Shown here: positions 13,990 to 63,298 of the stretch, in pieces | Layout: each line of letters starts with the position of its first letter | Numbering within the stretch: the first letter of the stretch is position 1 | DNA from: Antedon mediterranea | Lineage: Eukaryota; Echinodermata; Crinoidea; Comatulida; Antedonidae | DNA: 64,000 nt | Direction of reading: 5' to 3' | Assembly: GCF_964355755.1 (NCBI RefSeq) | Contig: NC_092680.1 | Coordinates: forward strand, 18,825,001-18,889,000 | Translations under genes and position numbers: made by a program | Notes under the pieces: generated by a model | The model's input: only the letters and a program-made list of their open reading frames with translations | Database searches by the model: none | Told to the model about the DNA's origin: nothing

Positions 13990-16900
13990 CTATTTTTGTT
14001 TAGATGTTGATTCTGTTTTACTTTTGAAATTTCTTTTATATTTTTTCCTCCTACCAAGTAGCTTGCGTGTTTCCTCAGCTGTTTCCTCTTCCTCCTTGGA
14101 CGCGTTGTTAATATAACCTGTGACAAAAAAAATAGTTTAACCATAAATGTACACAAACACATAACAAAAATGTATGCACTTTTGTCAACCTAATCATTTT
14201 TTAAATAATAATGTATATTTATTTTTGTGTGTTTTCTTGTTGACACAAAATCAATTTAATGTCACTTTTGAAGGAATATGAACAAAAATTCGCTCAATTT
14301 CAACAATAGGGTCTATTCAGACCTACAGAATTATGGTTTTGTAATGTATGCAGCATACAACACCATAGGTCCTATTCAGACCTACAGAGTTATGGTTTTG
14401 TACTATATGCAGCATACAGTCCAGGTCTTTTTCAGAGTGAGTGGCAAAACACTTAAGACAGTGGAACCGTAATACCTTGCCATATTAACATCGACAAGAG
14501 TTCGAGCCTCACTCGCTCCATGGTTCTGGTGGTAGAATAAGTCTTCCCGGATAAGGACTATAAACTGTAGGTCCAGTGTACACATCATGTGCACTTTAAA
14601 GAACCTAGTACATCTTTCGAGATGAGTAGGGGGTTACCCCGGTGTACTAGTATACACACAGCCACTGTCCTCATCAAGAGGGCCCCTTGATTGTCAGCAT
14701 ATGCTGTTTAGGGTCACCCTCTATAAATAAGGTGTAATAAAAAAATAAAATAAAAACGACCTACAGGAGAGTTATGGTGTTGTAATGTATGCAGCATACA
14801 ACTCCATACAGTAGGTCTTTTTCAGACCTACAGAGGTATGGTTTTGTACTGTATGCAGCATACAAGTTCCAGTTCAGACCTTCAGAGTTTTTAAACATAA
14901 AAACAGAACAAGAGTAGGATTACTTAAAAGTAATTCTACTCTTGTTCTGTTTTTATGTTGTACATTCTGTAAATTGGCAAAATAAATAATGACAATTTTT
15001 GCCCTTTCCTGGAAAAAAGAACCACTTCCCCTATTCATTGATTATTAGATAATTGTCAAGAACCATTACCTTTTTGAAGGCATATCTGTGTATTAGGGAA
15101 GTCAACATCCCAATAATGAGGTTGAGTAGCAGGGGGAGAGTAATGACCTCTGTGACGTGAACAAGCCTTCATACGATCAGCCTTTTGTGAATCTGTCAAA
15201 TCCATCGTACTGAAATACTTTAGGAGAAAAAAATGCAAGTTCAGAAACAATATTGTAAAAGCAAATAAAGAGCAAGTCCTCAACAATGTACAATAAAAAA
15301 TAGTGAACACCAACACTTTCGATTCACACAACTAAATTTTCCTGTAGAATACTTAGTTTACTACAGTAGAACTCATCCGTGTGGGACACCTACATTATAT
15401 GTAATGAAAGAGAAGCAAAATATATTTTTATTGCCAAACCTCCACCACCAGAATCATGGAGTGAGTGAGCCTCGAACCCCTGCCGATGTTATGGCAACGT
15501 AATTACGGTTCCACTGTCTTAACCGCTCGGCCACTCACTCACTATGTTATTGTTATACTGATAAAGGGGTCACGACTTAAAATTCAATGAACTTACTGCA
15601 ACCTCCATCCACCCATAATATACACTGTATACTTATATGTTTGTTTAAATTCATTTAAATGCTTTGAAAATAAATGAAATAGAGGAATACACAAACAATA
15701 CATACCGCTTCACAGTCTTTGCATTCAAAGCCTCTTAGTTTCCTCCTGTCTGCCTGCTTACGTACTACTTCTACGTACTTATAAGTGGGCTTCTCTTCAG
15801 CTACTGATGGCACCCTGTAGGAATTGCATACAAAATATGTTAATATCATCAGGTTTAAATTGTTTGCATTTAGTATCTATACAGTAAAGCCTCTAATTTT
15901 GCTCTTTCCAATTATGGCGACACCCTTCGAGGGGAACTTTCCTGTGAAACGGACAAGGGCAAATATATCATATATGACCAACACATATTCAGGGGACACT
16001 CCCTATAAATGAACGTGTCCTTTTAATAGAGATTCTACTCTAATCTTCACCAACCATGACGCGATAGATTGTCCAAACTGGTTTTTTTTTTCAATATTTA
16101 ACACAGAGGCACCTTAGCTTCAAGGCGCCTCGGATCAGCAAAGAAAAATCAATCAAATCTTCCAGAATTAACATGAAATTGTCACAAGTCAAAAGAAATC
16201 TGAAATGTTGTTTGTGATTGGTCAACTCACTTTAATTGTGCCTACGTCCTTGAATTATATCCAAGTGGGAATCAAACTAATATTACCATGCTAAAGAGGG
16301 ACAATAATATGATGATCAACCAAGTTGGTCAGACAATAAATAAAAATGTAACACATTAGTACTGTACAAGAAAAAAAATAATTACACATCGTAATCTTTG
16401 ATGAAAGAATCAACAGGTAGCTTCTTTGGTTTCTCATCTTCAACAACATTGGCCATATCTGTGGAAAAGGTAACATAACATAATGAACAAAATAAAATGT
16501 CATGATGACATTTCCAGCAATATACCTCCCTAATCTATTTTTGTGACTTTCCAGACATAGAAAATATTATAGTAAAGTTCCATTAATTTTCATAAAGACC
16601 TATACAGTACAAACTCTGTGTGGTATAGAGGATGAGAAAATGTGAGATTGAATTTAGTACAGTAAATTCAATTGTTATAAAAAAAAAAACTACCTCCATC
16701 ATGTTCCTCATATTCCTCATTGACACCAAACATATCATCTTCGCTTAAATTCTCAACATCCTTATCAACCATCAAAGAATGAACAGCATCACCTTCTTGC
16801 ATGTTAGTAGCAAAGGTATCATCTAGAATGCATGGCACCTCTTTGACAATGCAAACTGTGCCAGACTTTATTAAAACAGGTTTATGATTGGCAAGATCAT

Positions 16901-49891: not shown

Positions 49892-52800
49892 TCATTTTAA
49901 AATCTAGAAAAACAAAGAAAGAGTTTATATAAATACAGCCATACTGTAGTGTCTATTGAAACAATTGTAAGCTCAAATGATGTATACAGACATGTGAAAG
50001 CATAGTGCATTGTCAGCTTGTCTTGTGGCAGTTATTGATACTAATTTATAGTTACAGAGGCAACATATATTAACATTAACACTGTACTCATGTTTGAATT
50101 ACAACTCAAATAGGATTTCCTAGTTCTCAATGGCTTTTGGTATTATTATAAGTTAAGAGGATACGAGATAGTTTTAACCAGGATAAACAGAAAAGCATAA
50201 GATCATTGAATTTCCTCATTAGTGAGTCTTCACTTTTTGTTATTGTTGTTGATAAATATGTCAGCTATTCCTTGACATTTTTTTTAAAACCATATTTAAT
50301 GAGGGTGATCCATCCAGCTATTGTTGATCATTAGGGACCCTCAGAGGTTCACAAGACAAACATTATATACAAGATGCTTTACATAAACAAAGTCTTATTA
50401 CAAGCCTTTGGGAGAGGAGTTGTAATTTAGTCCTTTGAAAAAATCCTGACATGTGACGGGACTTGAACCCAGGACCCTTGGGGTGGTAGCCAAGCATCAT
50501 AACCACCAAGCCACAACTCCACATTGATGATTTAAACAAAGCAGATTTCCTAAAGTTCTTTCTATACTATCAAACTAGTTTGACAAAACAAGTGTGATGT
50601 GCCCAAATATGGACATGATGATGACATATCACTAGCATATTTGGGCATATAACTGCCATAGTTGGGCACATCACTGCCATATTTGGGCACATCACATTTT
50701 TTTGTTCCATAAAGTTTTATAGTGTAGACAGAGCTTAAGGTTGACTTACATCAATTACCACCCCAGCAGCTATCGTTGATCCACTATATCGTAACATAAA
50801 TCGTCCAAGGTCTTTATAGTCTTTGTACAACTCTAAACTTATTGGTCGTGAAACGTCAATTTCTATTACGGCATTCGTTTGTTTGGTTAGACATCTGCGA
50901 ATAAATATGCAACAATAAAATGACATCGATATCTTACTGTGAACGACCTTATTAAAGTAATAATGTAGGTTTTTTCCTCAAACCAATCTGGCAGTGCTTT
51001 AGTGTTATGCATAACAACATTTCTTTTGCAAAGAAAACACCTGTATTTACCTTGGTCTCTGTTTGAGTACTTCACCGGTGCTTTTATGCAATATACTTAT
51101 TAGTTTTCGGACTGTAGCGGGTTCACTTAACGTCTGGTAGTGCATTAGCACCTGCACAATTAAACAAATATTCAAAACGTTTAGCAATTAAAGCAAATTT
51201 ACAGATGAGCAGGAACAGTAAGCAAAAAAAAAAAACACTATGCTTGTCTACGTGTGTAAATGGCCAATATAGATTCAATGTTTTTTCCCCGTTTACAGTT
51301 TACCGCTCGTCTGTGTAAATTGGCCTTTAGGCTAATATTTTATCAAAACTATATGACAATCACTTCCTAATGAATACCGGAAACGGAAAAAGTTTGATTT
51401 CTGACTTACAATTCTAGAGAATAAAAAGTGATGTTACATAAAACAAACACTGATTGTTTTGTAATTTATAATATTACTGTATCATTCTTGGATTATTAAA
51501 AGATTGTACATATAATATAAACATATAATATATATAAAAAAAAACATTTATTAGCTTAAATTTAAATACCTGAAATCCTTTTGTTATTGGTATATCTAAA
51601 TTAAAAGTAATGACTCTTGCTCTAAAACGAACACAAGACGTAATTGGTTGATCAGCACTACATAGAATGTTACCAACGCTAGAAAGAAAAACAAATTGAA
51701 ACAAATCAATTTGATATTCCTATAAAGCGTGGTTCCCACTAGCGACGCAACGCAAGGACGTAACGCAACGCAAGTGCATTGACCCATCACAAGCGATGGC
51801 TTATTCGTTTGTGATTGCTAACTGTATATAACTTCGCTTGTCATTGGTTAACACGCTTGCGTTGCGTTTACGTCCTTGCGTTACGTTCTAGTGGGAACCA
51901 AGCTTCAAGATGCTTTGAATTTAAGTTGGTTAAAATGGTTGTTAATCCTCTGGCCCATAGAGTTATTACACTATCTATTATACCAGCTATGTGGTTGCTG
52001 TTGGATGTGTTGCGAGGTAATTTCCTGCATGATAGCAATCAAAAACGGTACTGGGTTTGGTCTACTAGCGTTCCTGCTGCCAACTAGTCATCCATTCACA
52101 GAAGCGTTGATGAAGCAAGCCTACCTGGTTGTGACTATAAAGTTATTACACATCTATTATACTAGATATATGGTCGCTGTTGGATGTGTTCTGAAATACA
52201 ATAAAACCCCTAAAAGGGACACCTTTGGAAACAAGTGTGTAGAGTGTCCCATGAATAGAAGTTGGCATTGTGTAAAACATGTATTTTCACTTCATTTGTT
52301 ATGGAAGTTTCCCCTTAATAGATAGGAGGAGTAGCTAGGCATGATGATGAATGAGACAACCCTAGGGTAGTAAGCTTAGGGTAGGCCTAGGTTGGTTTGT
52401 TTTATTTGATTTCCACAAAAATACATAAAAATAATATTTCTTTATAAAGGTCTCTAGGCAGTAGACCCCAGCTAGCTAGACTAAAAGGTATATTTCCATT
52501 AAATAAACGTTCGGGACTTTTGTTCAATTTTGTATAAATCGGTTAAAAAAAATAAAGTATAGAGCCAACTAAATCGTGTCTTATGAATAGAGGTAGGTTA
52601 TAGTGTCAACAAACTTTAATAGGGGTGTAGGAAAAGAAGGGGTTCAACTGTAATTGATAAATAGAGAATAGAAACTTACGTGACATTCATCTGGTCTATT
52701 CCAGTTATTGTTAGTGTGGTGTGGTCCCCTGCACACGCCCACTTCACATCCTCTTCATGGATAAACACAGCTGTACAAACATGTGTAAATAATTAACTAA

Positions 52801-55800
52801 ACTAACTAACTTTACGAATTAATAGACGCTTCTTATATAACTTTACAAAAAAATGTAATGACAAAAAACAAAAAGATCGACGTTTCAGAACCATCATGAA
52901 ACTATTTTCAAGATCAAGTGATTAAATAATACAAAAACAACAAACACCAATGGGTGACAGGAAATACTAATTAATTGGTTAATTAACTTCAAAGATGGCC
53001 TACAATACTAAGAAATTAAGTATCAATTAAACTTGATATTGAAAATGGTATGTATACTAAAATAAACCAAACACTGTATTATTTTTAAGACTTTAATCTA
53101 ATTTAAGATTATATAATTCAAGTAGAGTAATTCATATTGAAAGTGACACCACCAAATAAAGCACTAATATTTAAAATCATTAGAGTATTAAAATTACCAC
53201 CATATTCTCTGTACTCTATCTCCACATATGGCATTTATGTCCAGTATCTATAATACAGTTTCACATATGTATCGCATATGGCGCCTGTATTACGTTACTG
53301 TTATGTTCCGTTATATAGGCATCACATGTGATAAATATGTGACAATGTATTATTCTCTGTACTGTACCTCCACATGGCATGTATGTGCAGCCTGTATTTT
53401 GCTACAGTTATGTTCTATAAGCATCATATGTGATACATGACACTGTATTACAGAATTTTCCTATGATGATCGACAAATTATAAATACAGTATTACTAATT
53501 ACTGTCTAATATTTGGAATACCTACATTTAACAACTCCAGTATCTCCAGCTGGCATGACCACTACTTTCTGTCCAGCCTGTACACTACCAGAGACTATCT
53601 TACCACTTAGACTAAAACCAGATCCCATACCTTGAAGAACAATTTATTATAATTAATTGATACCTCAGAAGATAACCTATGAAATAATAGTTACAATCAT
53701 ACAGCAATCGGCTGATTTGGACCAGCTGTATTGTGAGATGGTTTGGGTTATCAATAATTTGGTATTACAAAATAAAACAATGGCAAAAATACTTGAAATA
53801 AGAAGTTGCTCATTTAGACAAATAATAAATATAATCATGTTACCTTTGAATACATCAGAAACACATAGCCTAAATGGTTTGTCTATTGACCGCTTTGGAG
53901 GTTTCAAAGAGTCTGGAAAAAAAAGTCACAAAAACCCATTACATACCATCTAAATGTTTTAAACTTTAACAACAATAAGTAGGAGTGGAGGGTTCACTGT
54001 TATAAGAATATTATCCATTTCACATTTCCTAACAAAGCACATGGCATACAAAACACTGGTGTTAATTTATGTGGAGCATCTTGTACAGTGGCATAATGCA
54101 GAGGTCAAAGGCCTCTGGTTTAGGAACCCTAAGTGGCCATCCAACGCTGGAGGCTACTGGAATTTTTTTAGCCTTTTTCGACATATTTTAATGCCTGTTT
54201 TTTTTCTCTTGACACTGCTCAGAGGCCTCCATGAGCTCCGGGGCCTCTAGGTTTAGTCAGTGAGCGCTCATAGCCGATACACCACTGATCTTGTGTGTAT
54301 GTTTGGGAATGGATTATCAACAATAAGTTTGAACAGACAGTGATAACATTCATTATTGCCAATTCACCTAAATACATAAGTACATGATTTCTTTTTGGTA
54401 AAATTGAAAGTGCTCCTTGAAAAGCATACACACAAAACCTCATTAGTTTTCATATAACGTAATCAAATATCCTACCTATATATTCTAGCAAACATTTATT
54501 CTTGTACCATTGTCGTAGCAGTTTCTCATGTGTTCTTTTAGCTAGGTTTTCTCCTGTTAAGCCACTGCAAGGCACATATACTAAATCGGATTCCTGAAGT
54601 ATTAACAACATTTGATAGTAAACAATTTAAAAAGATCAACTTAATAATTTAAAAAGGAATGGGGTACCATACCTATCTCATCATTAATTCATATTAGTGA
54701 CTTGACTAAAAATAACAGTTTTAATAAGGAAAACATAAAAATAAATATAAACAGCAGGACAAGGATGTAACGCAACGCAAGTGAATTGACCAATCACAAG
54801 CGATGGCTTATTCGCTTGTGATTGCTAACTGTCTATAACTTGGCTTGTCATTGGTCAACACGCTTGCGTTGCGTTTACGTCCTTGCGTTATGTTCTAGTG
54901 GGAACCAAGCTTAAGGGACTCTTTCCTGTGAAACGAAGGGGAAACATGCGTCTTAACAATACAGTTGACCCTTATTAAGGGGACACATTGCTGGGTCCCA
55001 ACGTATCTCCTTAATAGAGGCTCAACTGTATATAAAATGTATTAAGAACAATTACCTTAAATCCTGCAACCTGTTTCAGGAACTGACTTAATTTGTTTAC
55101 AATTTCAGTAAATCTATCTTCAGACCAATCCACTGTGTCTAACTTATTGACAGCCACTACAAGCTGCGTGACCCCTAATGACCTGACAAGCATGGCATGT
55201 TCTCGGGTCTGACCTCCAGAATCAAAACCGGTCTCAAACTCTCCTCGAGTTGCATCAACTACTAATACAGCGACATCAGCCTTAAAAAGAGAAATGTGAT
55301 AAATTATCAGAATATAATCCTATATGATTGTAAATCTGTCTCCACTATCACAATAAATAATGTGCTCAAATATGGTAGTAATATGACATCATTATGGGCA
55401 CATAACATCTTTTTGTCGCATAAGGTTTGATAGTGTAGACAGAGTATTAGAAAATCAATTTGTTCGTCAATTTTGAGATTTTTATTTTTAATGTAAATAA
55501 CATTTAAACAAATTTCAAACAATACACACTACAACAAGAACAAGTTAAGTATCCAACTAAACTAAAATTAAACTGATTTTTATAATAGCATTTATTTAAA
55601 AAAAAAATAAAATCAAGAAATTAATAAAAGTGAAGCTTACCTGTGCAGCACCTGTGATCATGTTTGGTATAAAATCTTTGTGTCCAGGTGCATCAAGAAG
55701 AGTGATTATTCTGTGCTCAGTCTCAAACTTATTAATACCCACATCCATGGTGATTCCTCTACACAACAAAAAACACAATGATTATATGAATGACATTTTG

Positions 55801-58800
55801 AAGAGTTAAATCGGTCTATACTAGTATAAAAGGATAGCAGGTTTATTAGACAACTGAACTTTACCTATACATAGGGAAACTCTGTAATACAGCATCTTAT
55901 GTATTTCTCATGTGATGCCTGTATCATGGAAGGTTAGGTTACCAGTTAGGTTATGGTCTAAAATACAGGCTTCACATGTGATGCTGTATCATAGAATTTG
56001 CCTATGATACAAGGCAAATTAATACCTCTGTCTTTCTTCACCAGTTTCATCTAAAACCCATGCATATGCAAATGAGGCTTTGCCTTGTTTCTTTGATTCT
56101 TGTTCATATTTATGCATTGTTTTTTGGTTAACGTTACCCAGCTGGTGTAGCAAGTGGCCCATCAATGTTGACTTGCCCGCATCTACATGCCCGATGACTA
56201 CAAGATTTAGGAGTGGCTTGCCAGATTGCCTTTCTTCAAAGGCCTTAGAAATGTCTATGCTCTGCGAAAAAATAAAATATATCTTCTGTATATTTTTTTC
56301 GTATTCTTATCTCGATTACTACAATATCTGAAATTGACATAGATCTTAGTATATCCATTTAAAAGCTTGATAGTCCAGTCAAAAAATCACCCTCACCATG
56401 GTATAAAGTGCGCCCTCATTTAAAAGCTTGATAGTCCAGTCAAAAATCACCCTCACCATGGTATAAAGTGCGCCCTCATTTAAAAGCTTGATAGTCCAGT
56501 CAAAAATCACCCTCACCATGGTATAAAGTGCGCCCCCATTTAAAAGCTTGATAGTCCAGTCAAAAATCACCCTCACCCTGGTATAAAGTGCGCCCTCATT
56601 TAAAAGCTTGAGTATTTATACAAAAGTAAATAACCACCATAAGTTAACAATTTTCTTTTATAGAGTGAAAACTATTATTATAAAAATGATTACCAATTTG
56701 CCACTTTTGTTTTTTGGAATTGTTGATCCTGCCATAGAGAGCAAATCTGGTGTGCTTCGTACTGTTGGTAGCTTTGGATGTCTGAAAATGTAAAACAGTT
56801 AAAACTGTTACAAGTAATAGTAGGTATATGCAAAATAAGGATGTTTGGAAACAGTGCTGTGAGGCTATAAATCAGGGTTCACACATACTTTTGTTTATTA
56901 ATTTCCATGACCTTTCCTAACCAGAATAAAGGCCAATTTACACAGACGAGCGGTAACGGTATGTGTGTGGTAGGCTACTGCTCTAGGCCTACTGACAGTC
57001 AGTCATATTAGGCTAGTATAGGTCAGCAGTGCTTGCAACATGCAGTAGCCTCAAGGCCTACAAGCACCTACTTTCTGCCACACTGCTCGCAAATTCCACG
57101 CGCTGTGTAAATGGGACAAGCTACACGGTTTTTGCTTACCATTACCGCTTACCATTCGTCTGTAAATTGGCCTTTATGACGAATTCAGTCCTGGAAATTA
57201 CTTATAAGAAATAATGTCAGGCTTTTTCCAGCTTTTCAATGACCACACACATGAATCCTGTAAAATGCTACTTACGCCAATAGCTCTGCCTTTCTTCCAG
57301 AATCCACAGAGAAGCGCTTACCCATTCCTGAGTCATCAGAGGTGACATTAAAGCCCCTGGTGACACTCCTTGTGGGAGAGGTGACATTCTTCTTGGTGGG
57401 AGGGGGCTGCAAAGGTACAGTAAGTGCACTATCTGATGTTGTAACATTCACGCCTTCAGAGAGAATGGTTAAATAGAAACTAATACATATTTAATTTAGA
57501 TAAAACATGAATGTGATTAAATCATGACTTTTATGAATAACAAATAAATACTGTAATAAATTAAAAAATTTAAATATAACAATTTTCTATTTCATTCTTA
57601 AGGGCCACAAGGAAATATGTTTGACCATTGGTTACTTTTTGTGCTACCCTGAATTCATTCCTATACTATTTTTTAATGTTATTATTGTTTTGAATTCGAA
57701 TAAAAAAATGGAAATTGAAACCCAATTACTAGTCACTAATTCTATTAGCCTAAACGATAGGAACATTTTGTGCTCAACTTAAAATCTGTTAAGTATGTTT
57801 TCTAATCAAATGGTAAAACTTGTTTTGAATGATGAAAATGCCAAATTTTTAAAAAGGATAATCCTCTTTTCACCTGTGAAGTGAAAAATGATTTGATATT
57901 GTGAAATATGATCTTTACTCTTCTAGGTCCAATAAAGTGAAATATGATCTTTACTCTTCCAGGTCAAATAAAAAGTACTCTTTGTGTGTATTAATTTGAT
58001 TTATCAAACAGCTACAACAAAATGTCCTAACAATACTTACTATCTCCCTTGGTTCTTTTAAAAGCTTTACTTTGTCTTTCTTTAATGATGTCATCAGGAG
58101 AGGGAGTTAAAAAATCAAACGGAACAATTGCTTTATAACTTTGATACAAGTTCTCTGACAACTGCCTTTTATATTGAAATGTGTCAGCGCATGGCAGCTC
58201 TGGTGGGCTGAGTGACTGATGGTAAGGTGATGTTGACAGTGACTGCAGATGTCCAGGAAGAACTCTGGTTTGAAGTTCTGCACATACAGCTTTTGAGAAG
58301 GCAGACATCCGAGCCATCAGAGCTGGTTCGGATTCCTGTTCGTTAAAAATCTGTGGAATGATTTTTGGTTGGTTTCCTATTTCGACTACCATCTGGTCTT
58401 TTTCTTTCTGGTGACCTTTCTGTCGTCTTCTTCTAGCATTTCTTGGTCGGTGAGTCACTGTTTCTTCCGGACTGCTACTGGATTGACAGTCAATGGTTGA
58501 CTTCTTAAGAGCGATAATACTGGTTTGTGTAGTCTTGGTAATTTTAGGTACAGGAATTGATTGTTCTTTATTAAGGTGAGTAGTCGCTAAAGCATTCAAT
58601 GACGCACCACCTCCAGGTGAACCAAATTGAACACCTCCAACAATTTTATTTTGAGGACTACCCGACAGATGATTGGAAGCTAGTGCACTTAATGATACTG
58701 CTTTAGCAGACGTTTGCCCATTTGAATCTTTTTCTGAACAGCTTTTCCCACTGCTGTGAAAGCGTACATTAGCTAAGGCAGAAAGTGATTGCCCTCTGCC

Positions 58801-61393
58801 AGGGTTAGCTTTAGGCCCAGAGCCTAGATGCATTTTAGCCAAGTTGCATAACGGTGTTGCACTAACATGCCTAGTCTTTTTACCTAAATTTGCTAATGGT
58901 ACAATTTGTCCTCCTAGCCCTTCTTTTCCCAATGTAGTGCCATCATAAGAGCCAACTTCCTTATTTCGATTTCCTTCTTTTCCTTTTAATTTACTTTGAT
59001 TCAAAAGGCTGACAAGGGAAGAAGTAGGCTTAGGTGGGGAATGAAGGTTAACTACCGAGCTAGGTGGAGTCATTAAACCAGAAGGATTTAACAAAGAAAA
59101 ACCTAGGCCTCCTTACCTTATACCATAGCAAAAGATATCAGCAGATGAGGTATTGTGGGAAGGTCGCAGTGTGGAAGGCAGGCAGGACAAGTAGAGGAAA
59201 ACATGAAAAGGAAACAAAGATGCTTTCAGTTAGCAAAAACAATAAATTAAAATATTGAAAACATGTTGAATATATATTTCTATATCAACCAAATGGTATA
59301 TAAAAAGCATGAGTGCCATTCTTTAACCTTGATCATGAGAAAATTATGGGATGCCAAGGATTATTAATAGTCATCACAACCCATAAACATTTTTGTCTTT
59401 GTAAAGAAAACTTTTCATTAAAAATTTAATAACTAATTCGTTAGATGTGATTGTACCTTATGCTAAGTACATATTGAGAAAAACTAAATTGCAAGTAATA
59501 CTTTGGTGGGACTCGTACCAATGACTTCCTGGTGATAAACATCTGAACATTAGTTTGATTAGCTATGTTAATTGGTCAGATGTACTCTTTTACTCCGGCG
59601 TATTTGTTCTTTATACAAAATTCTTAGTATAAAGTGCTATTACAATAGAGTAGGATAACCAAATGACCAATTTACCATGGTATTGCTAGGCAAACATCAT
59701 AAACAACTTACTGTAACTTTACTGACAAGAAATTGGCACCTGTATAAAGCTCAAACTTTATGTGACAAAAAATGTGATGTGCCCATATACGGACATGATG
59801 TCATATCACAACCATATTTGGGCACATCAAAACAAAAACAAAAACATTTAGTAAACGTTATGCTATACCAACCTGTTCTTTGTGGGTTCTTAGGCTTAGC
59901 ACCTGGTCCTAGGAGCAAGACATCTGGTACCGGTTTCTTACTAGGTTCTTTAGCTTGGGTATGCAGAATAGAATCAAGAGCTTTCTCAAGGTTGAAATTG
60001 CTTTTGATAATCATATCTGTCATAATATGCTCTGGTACACTATCACCCATTACATTGCGAATGCCATCTATGCAAGAGTTTAAAAGAGCTGAAAAATACA
60101 AATGCATTTGAAATTGTCAGGTTTAAAGCTGTCTACACTATCAAACTAGTTTTAACAAAAAAGTGGGATGTGCCCAAATATGGTAGTAATATGCCAAAAT
60201 ATGTTAGTGATATGACATCATCATGTGCATACACTATACGGGCACATCACATTTCAAAGTGTCATAGTGTAGACAGAGCTTTAGTAAGTCAAAGAACTGA
60301 AATTAAGACAGAAGAATTTTTGTTTAAAAGAGTCTCACATAGCTTATTTAAAGCAAATATAACACTTCAGTCCTACCCATACTCCAATGTATGTAACAAT
60401 TTTAGATGATTATTATTTTTTTTTTACTGTAGTTATTATAATAGTAGTCTATTATAGATAAAATAAATGTGCTGGTTATATTACCCTGATCATCATCACT
60501 AAGCTTAGGTCTTTTGAAGTCTTTAGAATCTTGCAGTGGTTGTTCCTCTTCACTTTCATTGGCCTTTTCTTCCTCTTCTGCATCTCCTTCTCCTATCTTA
60601 TCCAAATAATGTGATAAGCTAGTGTCATGATGCCCACGATGGAACATAAACTGACGTTCTGAAAGAAAGACGAGAAATCACTTAAAAACGATCAAAATAA
60701 GCCGTCTCTAACTAGCTAGGCCTAGTGCCTTCTTTCATGAGCAGCCTGATTGCACCATCTGATATTCTACTACAGTAATTGAAGTTTCAACACTTACCCG
60801 TCGAGGGTGACACACCAACACCATAATCATCTTCTACTGAATGCCCATAAACATCATAGTAACCATCATACTCTGAAAGAAAATAAAATTACTGTAGTTA
60901 CAAAGGTACGTATAGCCAGGGTCAGTGACCGCCAGACTAATCTAGTTAGTCTAGGCCTATATTATAGCTAGGCCTAGTAGGCTAGTAGTAGTAGAGTAGG
61001 CTCTACTTTTTATTTTCATTTACCAATTTGAAATTTTACAAAAAAGGGAAAGACATTGGAGTTGGTTGTATTATAACGTTCATTTAATGTATTTATTATG
61101 CCTTTTAGCCCAGCTAGCTGAAGTCTACTGCTTTTTGAGACCTTAGGCCTACCCTCTACTAGGCTTGCCTCGTTCATCATCATGCCTAGCTAGAATGGCT
61201 AGGCCTAGGCCCAACCTATCTATCAATCCTAGCTACCTCTAAGATTAAGAAGGCCTCAGACAGAGGCCTACTAGGAGGAGTAGGTAGGAGGCTAGGCTAG
61301 CTAGCCTAGCCCACGTCACAAAATGTTACGGTGTTATAACTTATGGTTACCTTCTCCGTAGTCCATGCTACGGACATTTCTATGTCGTGACAT
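49892..61393 (-). CDS. HBS1L: HBS1L, ribosome-rescue GTPase (HBS1/SKI7 locus)
   Basis: eEF1A/eRF3-like GTPase that acts with Pelota on stalled ribosomes. Exons: 61351-61393, 60798-60872, 60485-60658, 59873-60088, 57276-57453, 56694-56781, 56026-56261, 55641-55758, 55056-55280, 54476-54593, 53844-53912, 53526-53630, 52680-52770, 51570-51678, 51051-51151, 50750-50894, 49892-49903. All GT-AG, phases agree; 2103 nt, 700 residues (human 684). N-terminus [14 protein letters not shown] and [15 protein letters not shown]; a helical segment near 100-150. GTPase: GHVDAGKS (282-289), ITMD, DAPGH (359-363), NKLD (421-424), CSGL. Then beta-barrel domains to [18 protein letters not shown]. The last exon (ILK stop) has a strong acceptor, tttgtttttctag. 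Without that splice, the frame runs on to DVSQP and a stop at 50735. An alternative exon (58041-59102) is listed separately. Confidence 0.9.
50285..50522 (-). mobile_element. tRNA-derived SINE, type D
   Basis: Reverse complement head GGAGTTGTGGCTTGGTGGTT then ATGATGCTTGGCTACCACCC; B box TGGGTTCAAGTCCC. The body ends with ATAATGTTTGTCTTGTGAAC then CTCTGAGGGTCCCTAATGAT. In the last HBS1L intron; unlike types A to C. Confidence 0.65.
50553..50736. mobile_element. MITE family 1 copy touching the HBS1L coding end
   Basis: AAGTTCTTTCTATACTATCA to TTATAGTGTAGACAGAGCTT, 184 bp, with an extra internal repeat of GCCATATTTGGGCACATCAC-type words. Its right terminus is 13 bp from the HBS1L donor at 50749. 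If that donor is not used, the first in-frame stop (50735-50737) is made at the element edge. Confidence 0.85.
51245..51329. mobile_element. MITE family 4 fragment
   Basis: Right end TACCGCTCGTCTGTGTAAAT then TGGCCTTT; the left side has a partial GTGTGTAAATGGCC. In an HBS1L intron. Confidence 0.65.
51725..51905. mobile_element. MITE family 3 copy
   Basis: Near-identical to the copy at 11781, 181 bp: AAGCGTGGTTCCCACTAGCG ... GTTCTAGTGGGAACCAAGCT. In HBS1L intron, 46 bp upstream of the exon starting at 51678. Confidence 0.85.
52865..52930 (-). mobile_element. Penelope-like terminal relic, tentative
   Basis: Reverse complement CACTTGATCTTGAAAATAGT then TTCATGATGGTTCTGAAACG and TCGATC. This is close to words found at ends of Penelope-like elements, with a GAAACGTCGA block shared with the hairpins at 6955 and 37020. 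Identification is tentative. Confidence 0.3.
53225..53470. repeat. Diverged repeat related to the element at 55870
   Basis: Two loosely repeated halves (TCTCTGTACT...CCACATATGGCAT and TCTCTGTACTGTACCTCCAC), with GCATCACATGTGAT and a right end TGTATTACAGAATTTTCCTA like the terminus at 55.87-56.0 kb. In an HBS1L intron. Confidence 0.5.
54757..54912. mobile_element. MITE family 3 copy, left end lost
   Basis: Begins at AGGATGTAACGCAACGCAAG and keeps the right arm to TTCTAGTGGGAACCAAGCTT. In an HBS1L intron. Confidence 0.8.
55332..55447. mobile_element. MITE family 1 copy, diverged
   Basis: AAATCTGTCTCCACTATCAC to GGTTTGATAGTGTAGACAGA. In an HBS1L intron. Confidence 0.7.
55870..56005. mobile_element. 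Inverted-repeat element, family 5
   Basis: Left CATAGGGAAACTCTGTAATA then CAGCATC; right GATGCTGTATCATAGAATTT then GCCTATG, with the next 25 bp also paired (TGTGATGCCTGTAT and ATACAGGCTTCACA). Just downstream of HBS1L exon 7. Confidence 0.65.
56358..56611. repeat. 60-bp minisatellite, about 4.2 copies
   Basis: Unit CATTTAAAAGCTTGATAGTC, CAGTCAAAAATCACCCTCAC, CATGGTATAAAGTGCGCCCT. Copies differ by one or two bases. In an HBS1L intron. Confidence 0.93.
56938..57175. mobile_element. MITE family 4 copy with GC-richer interior
   Basis: AAAGGCCAATTTACACAGAC then GAGCGGTAACGG; right end TACCATTCGTCTGTAAATTG then GCCTTTA. In an HBS1L intron. Confidence 0.75.
58027..59102 (-). CDS. HBS1L: SKI7-like alternative exon of HBS1L
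   Basis: Large exon between HBS1L exons 4 and 5. The acceptor cctag gives first base 59102, so exon 4 (ACA G) plus GT TTT TCT reads [20 protein letters not shown] strong donor (GAT A|gtaagt) ends it at 58041, making 1062 nt, divisible by three. If that donor is skipped, the frame reads GDSKYC and stops at 58027. Recurrent SLSALAxxHL-type motifs appear about five times ([29 protein letters not shown]). The C-terminal [17 protein letters not shown] resembles the exosome-binding region of vertebrate HBS1L isoform 3, the Ski7 equivalent. Possible products: Hbs1 (700 aa, skipped), Ski7-like (527 aa, terminal) or fusion (1054 aa). Functional motif assignment is from memory of the family. Confidence 0.8.
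59743..59830. mobile_element. MITE family 1 fragment
   Basis: AAGCTCAAACTTTATGTGAC then the ATGTGATGTGCCCATATACG core and CATATTTGGGCACATC; outer ends lost. Ends about 43 bp from HBS1L exon 4. Confidence 0.65.
60126..60282. mobile_element. MITE family 1 copy
   Basis: AAGCTGTCTACACTATCAAA to AGTGTCATAGTGTAGACAGA then GCTTTA. In HBS1L intron 3. Confidence 0.8.
60900..61350 (-). promoter_or_regulatory. TAGGCCTA-rich 5' intron of HBS1L
   Basis: HBS1L intron 1, with words such as GGCCTATATTATAGCTAGGC, AATGGCTAGGCCTAGGCCCA and GGAGGCTAGGCTAGCTAGCC. The composition resembles the spacers at 20.7, 34.5 and 44.7 kb. Regulatory role is a guess based on position. Confidence 0.3.
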
Positions 61394-62689
61394 TTTGCAC
61401 TATTTAAACTGTTTATATTGCAATGAAATCCATTTATTTTAACAGCCAATATACTTGTCTGTATTTTGGAGAAATTTCCAGGATGGTACATTTTGTAGTG
61501 GCTGCCATTTTAAAAGGAAGTGCGCCCTCTAGAAGAGAATTGAAGTTTGTATATGATGGGCATAGCAGCAGCCTGGATGAATCGCACATTTCAACCCCCT
61601 CCCCCCGCCCAATAAAAAAAAACAGCAATTGGATGACATGTAATTTAAGCCAAATCAAAATAATTTTTGCTATCTTCAAATACACATAATTACAATAACA
61701 AACATGTACTAAAATAAGGATACGGTACGATTTTTAAAACCAAAATTACCAAAATAAAAAGGAAATATTACACAGATAAAATTCATGGAATAAATATAAA
61801 TAGGCCTAGGCCTACTGTAATAAGATAATGAAAGTAGGCTATAACCATCATGAGGAAAACCGTTTCTCTATTCAGGGGATACTTTGTTGGGTCGTCCAAT
61901 CAATCCCCGGTGTTGTTCCCTGTAAGGGTCCTTGTCAACATTTACTCATCTAATTATCAGTAACGTGGTAATTAATAGAATATTTCCGGACACGTGACAG
62001 TTATGAGTTATTGACTAGAGTTCATGTCGTCAATTATTTATCAGGAGATGTATCACTTAATTCCGAACCTGCTTAATTGCATGATCGCAGCAGATTCATC
62101 TCATGTATGCTTTGTTCAACAACAACAAACTGCAAAACTCCGAATTTAATGTCTTATTTATTTATAAATAGGCCTATGTGGGTGTCTATTTTGATGTCTG
62201 ATGCCCGGCCTGATGCCCTTATTTTTCCTTTCCTAATGACCATCTCTCTCACCCCAAATTATTTTATCACTAGCCTACGTTATAGGCCTACGCCCCTTGT
62301 CAATACACTTTCTTCTATACAATTAATGGAGTAAATACATTAAGCATAATTTATATTGTCTTTCTAATATTTTAAACTTGTTTTAAAATATGATTTTGTG
62401 TGTGGCCTACATGTGGAAAATAATTGAAGATGAATATTCAGATGATATCAACACGAGTAACTCTTATTTTACAATTCACACAAAACGAATTATTCCGGAA
62501 TAATCAAAACAATTGTTTAAAAACTAGATTTTAATTCGTCACTTTTACGAATTAATGTGATCTTTGTGATAGAAGATAATTTTACCGACGTTCTACGAAT
62601 AAAATTAAGATTTGATAGGCTGTACTCAATCTTCCTCCTATGCGCATGTTTTTTTGTTTTGTTTTTATTTTATTAATGAGCTTTCTTAA
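61394..62689. other. HBS1L upstream spacer, no gene
   Basis: No exon recognised. Contains short AT-rich frames on both strands and a C run (61597-61607). The HBS1L 5' UTR and promoter should lie at its left end. Confidence 0.4.
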
Positions 62690-63294
62690 CACGTTCACTG
62701 CCAAGGCATTTTCCGTAATTTCTGTCCCAGTGCCAAGTCCCGTTTACATATTAAATTACAGTTTGAAAGTGTAACATCTGGTCACAGACTATCATGATGT
62801 CATTCAAAATACGATGGCGGGAAAAACCGTTGAGACGTATAAATACGTCACTGGCAATGGTCCAACAATTTTATTGACTTTGCCAGGAACGTAAATATAC
62901 GTCGGGGATTTTCCGCGCTAAAATCGGTCAAACCTATCATCGAGAGATAAAAACAGTAAACCACACTGAATCATTTCATCCTTTATTATTTTTATTTACT
63001 ATTAGCGCAATTTATGACATGTTTGAGATGATTATATTGAGTGTGAGGGCGCCATCGTATCAACCATATTCAATGCATGAGGGAATAAACACAAACAAAC
63101 ATATGACATTTATTTTTAGATTATCGTTTACGTACATCATTCATAAACTGCCATGCGATAATTCCTGTTCCAATCACCACTGCCAGCGATTCTACATACA
63201 ATACAAAAGTGCTACGATTTTGACGTAGTATTACGTCTTGGCAAGTAGCGACACGCAATTTTTGACGTATAAATACGCCGTGGCAGTGAACGTG
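62690..63294. mobile_element. 605-bp inverted-repeat element flanked by TTAA
   Basis: Left: TTAA then CACGTTCACTGCCA. Right: TGGCAGTGAACGTG then TTAA (62686-62689 and 63295-63298). Subterminal GACGTATAAATACG words occur in both orientations. TTAA duplication and the terminal type fit a piggyBac-derived MITE. No transposase frame is seen. Confidence 0.75.
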
Positions 63295-63298
63295 TTAA

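Follow-up and report, generated by a model that had tools for sequence, protein, structure and literature searches.

A phase-symmetric SKI7 exon in the HBS1L gene of the crinoid Antedon mediterranea and the possibility of a Ski7 that retains the GTPase

Introduction

Hbs1 is a GTPase that acts with Pelota to split stalled ribosomes, and metazoan SKI7 is characterized by binding to the exosome (EXO9/CSL4) and to SKI3. The Ski7 isoforms of plants and most fungi consist of a Ski7 segment together with the GTPase, whereas the Ski7 of vertebrates, and perhaps also that of some basidiomycetes, is without the GTPase (PMC6143672; PMC3597508). The timing of the loss of the GTPase from animal Ski7 was an open question in 2018, when echinoderm SKI7-like proteins were reported (PMC6143672).

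Here, we describe HBS1L in a 64 kb stretch of the Antedon mediterranea genome (contig NC_092680.1, positions 18,825,001 to 18,889,000), referred to below as the window, and compare its SKI7 exon with those of the systems listed above. The SKI7 exon is numbered e5 and the next exon is exon 6, which was exon 5 in the preliminary description of this DNA.

Results

HBS1L was assembled from the raw sequence of the window as a 17-exon gene on the minus strand (61393–50735; Table 1) that ends in a TAA stop codon at 50737–50735. With e5 skipped, it encodes a 701 aa Hbs1 with no internal stops. Residues 1–699 of this protein match mammalian HBS1L, with 5lzw_jj the best match in the PDB (E = 3.3e-229), and the GTPase (G) motifs are intact in a predicted protein whose homology to Hbs1 spans its full length. 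When AGs were scored with a simple matrix, the top 5% included 11 of the HBS1L acceptors other than that of e5, and we conclude that the gene model is sound. Exon 4 ends in phase 1 and has a weak donor (CAG/GTTGGT).

Table 1. Features of HBS1L in the 64 kb window (a slash marks the splice junction)
Feature	Position	Strand	Basis or remark
HBS1L coding exon 1 (ATG)	61351..61393	-	translation matches mammalian HBS1L from first residue
HBS1L exon 2	60798..60872	-	gene model and mammalian HBS1L match
HBS1L exon 3 (acidic stretch)	60485..60658	-	gene model and mammalian HBS1L match
HBS1L exon 4, HBS1_N/UBA-like domain	59873..60088	-	Pfam HBS1_N, E 9e-7
AG-free pyrimidine-rich tract, 104 nt, before SKI7 exon	59119..59222	-	AG-AG gap statistics
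AG/GTAAGG, first AG past tract, recursive-splice-like	59111..59118	-	highest donor-like score in the stretch from exon 4 to exon 6
SKI7 exon e5, 1062 nt, phase 1/1	58041..59102	-	alternative in-frame starts 59108, 59111
Donor GTAAGT and read-through codons to TAG (Ski7-like stop)	58027..58040	-	
Exon 6 (linker), starts in phase 1, first after SKI7 exon	57276..57453	-	
Exon 7 (linker)	56694..56781	-	gene model
Exons 8-17, translational GTPase and beta-barrel domains	50735..56261	-	full-length match to 5lzw_jj

The e5 exon has phase 1 at both ends, which is the phase of the junction between exons 4 and 6, and its frame is open throughout, confirming the preliminary description of a 1062 nt exon that joins in frame to both of its neighbours. 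At the level of the reading frame, inclusion of e5 gives an open 1055 aa fusion of the Ski7-like segment and the GTPase, one residue longer than the 1054 first counted. Reading through the e5 donor gives a 527 aa Ski7-like protein whose last residues, SKYC, are all that the read-through contributes before a TAG that ends at 58027, where the stop had been placed. The earlier proposal of three products, by skipping, read-through and inclusion, is sound in its logic at this level (701, 527 and 1055 aa, respectively).

When the PDB was searched with phmmer, the last 48 residues of e5 returned a single match, to the human SKI7 chain 9g8m_E (E = 2.9e-4); alignment with vertebrate HBS1L isoform 3 had been put forward as a check. 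Inside this match falls a Patch-4-like motif that agrees at 13/17 positions with the metazoan consensus IaPF[D/R]F[K/D][S/T]aSPDDIV+A (PMC6143672), one further position being changed from V to I. The SKI7-like motif, for which the metazoan consensus is A+PShFAahL (RxxxFxxxL) (PMC6143672), is partial in e5, with A, R, S and F kept, and P changed to M, A to S and L to V. The exon sits between exon 4, which encodes HBS1_N, and the GTPase exons. From the match to human SKI7, the agreement with the published motif consensus and the location of e5, with the shared N-terminus before it and the GTPase exons after it, we assign e5 as the SKI7 exon of HBS1L, as had been suggested for it.

In the structure of the human exosome with the ribosome, the corresponding parts of SKI7 contact RRP43/MTR3 and CSL4, and residues 617–632 form a helix that reaches SKI2 (PMC11540850). 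The construct stated for the human SKI7 structure is 369–632 and the chain length is 274, which would place the end of human SKI7 approximately one residue past KAFTR. The e5 donor lies 13 nt past KAFKR, near this end. A gene for CSL4, the Patch-4 partner, was found in the genome.

Four L-x-x-L-A units are present in e5; in 5000 shuffled versions of the protein encoded by the exon, the motif never occurred more than once. The repeated motifs and the block of 12 protein letters in the preliminary description were both found. The part of the protein that bears these repeats is long and probably disordered. A profile built from the four repeats had no match in the PDB, and for the middle of e5 none could be detected, either to the human SKI7 chain or elsewhere in the PDB. 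A tie between the repeats and the SKI3-binding helix of human SKI7 is unproven.

As e5 is single-copy in the genome, and the other HBS1L-like matches there share 52–59% identity, as expected of eRF3/EF1A-type GTPases, one locus must supply both Hbs1 and Ski7. An HBS1L paralogue was sought in the genome and no clear one was seen, and a processed copy containing e5, which would be a record of splicing, was not found there. We infer that e5 is used alternatively. A Bindin gene with a B18-type peptide (LGLLLRHLRHHSDLLANI) is also present in the genome and identifies it as that of an echinoderm; a search there for COX1, as a mitochondrial marker, gave no match.

The e5 donor (ATA/GTAAGT) is perfect from +1 to +6 and has T and A at -2 and -1. 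Its score is the median for the gene on a human-type matrix and low on a small matrix derived from the other introns of the gene. It is therefore moderate, not strong as first described, and the argument that a strong donor makes inclusion believable was overstated. The chance of an in-phase donor of such quality within the 25 nt before a stop is approximately 0.01 using the donor density of the human-type matrix (1.1 per kb) and 0.07 using the gene-trained, 14-intron matrix. The finding was also one chosen for its neat look. A genome pattern search for GTAAGT(N8)TAA returned thousands of matches and was uninformative.

The phase symmetry of e5, the position of its donor right past the conserved helix, the absence of AATAAA downstream and the GTPase-retaining isoforms of plants and fungi together favour a fused form, and we consider it rather probable that a 1055 aa Ski7–GTPase protein is made by cells. 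The moderate donor, weak in-frame acceptors (see below), an ATTAAA at 57677 in intron 5 and the fact that vertebrate Ski7 ends in the SKI7 exon count against it. Were e5 to serve, as in vertebrates, solely as an alternative last exon, polyadenylation would occur inside intron 5, the product would be the 527 aa Ski7, and the in-frame donor would be vestigial or seldom used. Human and zebrafish Ski7 are made in this way (PMC6143672; PMC3597508), and the ATTAAA and a read-through that adds just four residues fit such an arrangement. However, it has no need for an in-phase donor exactly at the end of the conserved segment. The 587 nt of intron 5 downstream of e5 contain no AATAAA, where approximately 1.2 are expected at the density of the window (p ~0.3 for the absence). 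Furthermore, a stop lies within five codons of 31% of random points in this AT-rich intron, hence read-through gains no support from the stop right past the donor. We regard use of e5 as a last exon alone as possible, but on the unlikely side.

Upstream of e5, the 104 nt tract is AG-free and 73% pyrimidine, and only 2/6772 AG–AG gaps in the window reach its length and pyrimidine richness. We read it as the signature of a genuine acceptor whose branch point lies far away. A branch-like TGCTAAC (59235–59229) lies upstream of the tract and a TGCTGAT (59143–59137) within it. Past the tract are four clustered AGs that end at 59117, 59112, 59109 and 59103. Exon starts at 59111, 59108 and 59102 all hold the SKI7 frame, and retention of e5 from 59116 leads to a stop after KEA. 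Within the cluster, AG59117 scores highest as an acceptor; the AGs that keep the frame make weak acceptors, that at 59102 being poor in its own -20 window. The start of 59102 given in the preliminary description is thus in frame but has a weak acceptor, and the true 5' end is uncertain by 0–9 nt.

An alternative model would make 59222–59117 a small coding exon with its donor at 59117, separated by a 108 nt intron from a SKI7 exon that starts from an acceptor at 59008. The donor (7.4) and acceptor (7.0) for this intron are strong, the phases agree and the reading frame stays open, but codon scoring disfavours the model, and we rejected it. By its codons the 59103–59011 segment resembles coding sequence, with a score reached by just 1.7% of intron windows free of stops, and 59223–59122 is intron-like, with scores at least as high in 40% of intron windows and in every exon window. 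In addition, a further repeat-like unit, SLVSLL, crosses the proposed junction at 59008. The extra exon is very improbable.

At 59117/59116 (AAG/GTAAGG), the acceptor AG abuts sequence that rebuilds a strong 5' splice site. On the human-type matrix the rebuilt CAG/GTAAGG reaches 7.5, whereas the native donor of exon 4 scores 1.4 and that of e5 3.3; on the gene-trained matrix the rebuilt donor again ranks first (5.1, with the other two at 2.1 and -0.8). The arrangement is that of recursive-splice exons, which are known in species from sea urchin to human (PMC6224609), and a choice of acceptor involving recursive splicing could decide between Hbs1 and Ski7. Use of AG59117 would join exon 4 to GTAAGG and rebuild the strong donor; once this donor was spliced to exon 6, e5 would be lost and Hbs1 made. 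Use of a later in-frame AG (59112 or 59103) would retain e5 and give Ski7. This choice is compatible with the fused form. The rank of the tract (2 of 6772), the standing of AG59117 in its cluster, the top score of the rebuilt donor on both matrices and the rarity of AGGTAAG (0.11 per kb per strand) point towards it. Its basis is purely sequence, however, the intron is short, e5 kept from 59116 would hit the stop after KEA, and direct skipping from exon 4 to exon 6 would do equally well. We offer it tentatively, as an unlikely arrangement. It is quite improbable that two things should both hold, namely an animal protein in which a Ski7 segment is fused to the Hbs1 GTPase, and a recursive-splice choice between Hbs1 and Ski7 at tandem acceptors.

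Several repeats were seen in and around HBS1L. Upstream of the gene, an element of ~610 bp (62686–63298) has 27 nt inverted ends (TTAACACGTTCACTGCCA.../...TGGCAGTGAACGTGTTAA) and, with its TTAA ends, looks like a non-autonomous piggyBac-type transposon. A tandem array of a 60 bp unit, with four near-identical copies and a partial one, occupies 56355–56626 in intron 7, and two tandem 36 nt copies are found in intron 5 (57896–57967), just downstream of the SKI7 exon. Short MITE-like inverted-repeat elements, with cores GATGTGCCCAAATATGG / CCATATTTGGGCACATC and ends CTGTCTACACTAT...ATAGTGTAGACAG, recur in introns and flanks at 60130–60270, 59770–59830, 55340–55440 and 50560–50735. A repeated element with GGTTCCCACTAGAACRTAACGCAAGGACGTAAACGCAACGCAAGCGTGTT ends is present in two HBS1L introns (54760–54920 and 51725–51910). 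Neighbouring genes on the minus strand include a CtIP/SAE2 C-terminal exon (15059–15331; Pfam SAE2, E 6e-8) and an M14-type zinc carboxypeptidase (479–1474; E 1.5e-9) that is probably AGBL-like.

Discussion

Skipping of e5 would produce Hbs1, the ribosome-splitting GTPase, and its inclusion would produce a Ski7 composed of the shared N-terminus, a long repeat part and a C-terminal exosome-binding part, in which the SKI7-like motif would be followed by the Patch-4-like motif and helix. Given the symmetric phase and a usable donor past the conserved helix, the likeliest Ski7 product would retain the GTPase (1055 aa), and where the e5 donor went unused, the shorter, vertebrate-like protein of 527 aa would result. 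This presumes that e5 is transcribed, that its donor is used and that the product binds the exosome and the SKI complex, all of which is inferred. If true, a protein with both activities would physically tie ribosome splitting to exosome recruitment.

The presence of a symmetric SKI7 exon in an echinoderm suggests that the fused form of plants and fungi persisted into deuterostomes. The vertebrate short form may have arisen via the loss of one donor; the end of human SKI7 appears to coincide almost exactly with the e5 donor. The survey of Ski7 splicing by Marshall et al. (PNAS, 2018) may already include echinoderms. A fused form was initially called unusual, which holds relative to vertebrates but not relative to plants and most fungi, where the GTPase is kept (PMC6143672; PMC3597508). 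Its kind is already known, and what would be new is its occurrence in an animal; it could plausibly be a retained ancestral form.

The e5 exon shares with the alternative exon 5 of vertebrate SKI7/HBS1LV3 the same gene, the same position past the shared N-terminus, and a large single SKI7 exon with a Patch-4-like motif and helix and, in part, the SKI7-like motif. However, the vertebrate exon ends the protein, so that the GTPase is absent, while the donor of e5 is in phase with the GTPase exons, and e5 bears a set of L-x-x-L-A repeats. The HBS1/SKI7 cassette exon of Arabidopsis AT5G10630 resembles e5 in that in-frame inclusion gives a Ski7 retaining the GTPase, but the cassette of the plant is short, with the Patch-4 motif located after it, whereas e5 contains the two motifs along with a long additional segment. 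In Lachancea kluyveri SKI7/HBS1 and Saccharomyces cerevisiae Ski7, as in the proposed fusion, a single protein has an exosome-binding segment ahead of a GTPase domain or one resembling it; fungi mostly rely on a choice among 3' splice sites or on duplication of the gene, in contrast to the cassette-type exon described here. Finally, the region before e5 is like recursive-splice exons, or ratchet points, in having an AG followed directly by GTAAGG that would rebuild a donor for the preceding exon. It differs from them in that the coding exon would begin, in frame, 5–14 nt further downstream.
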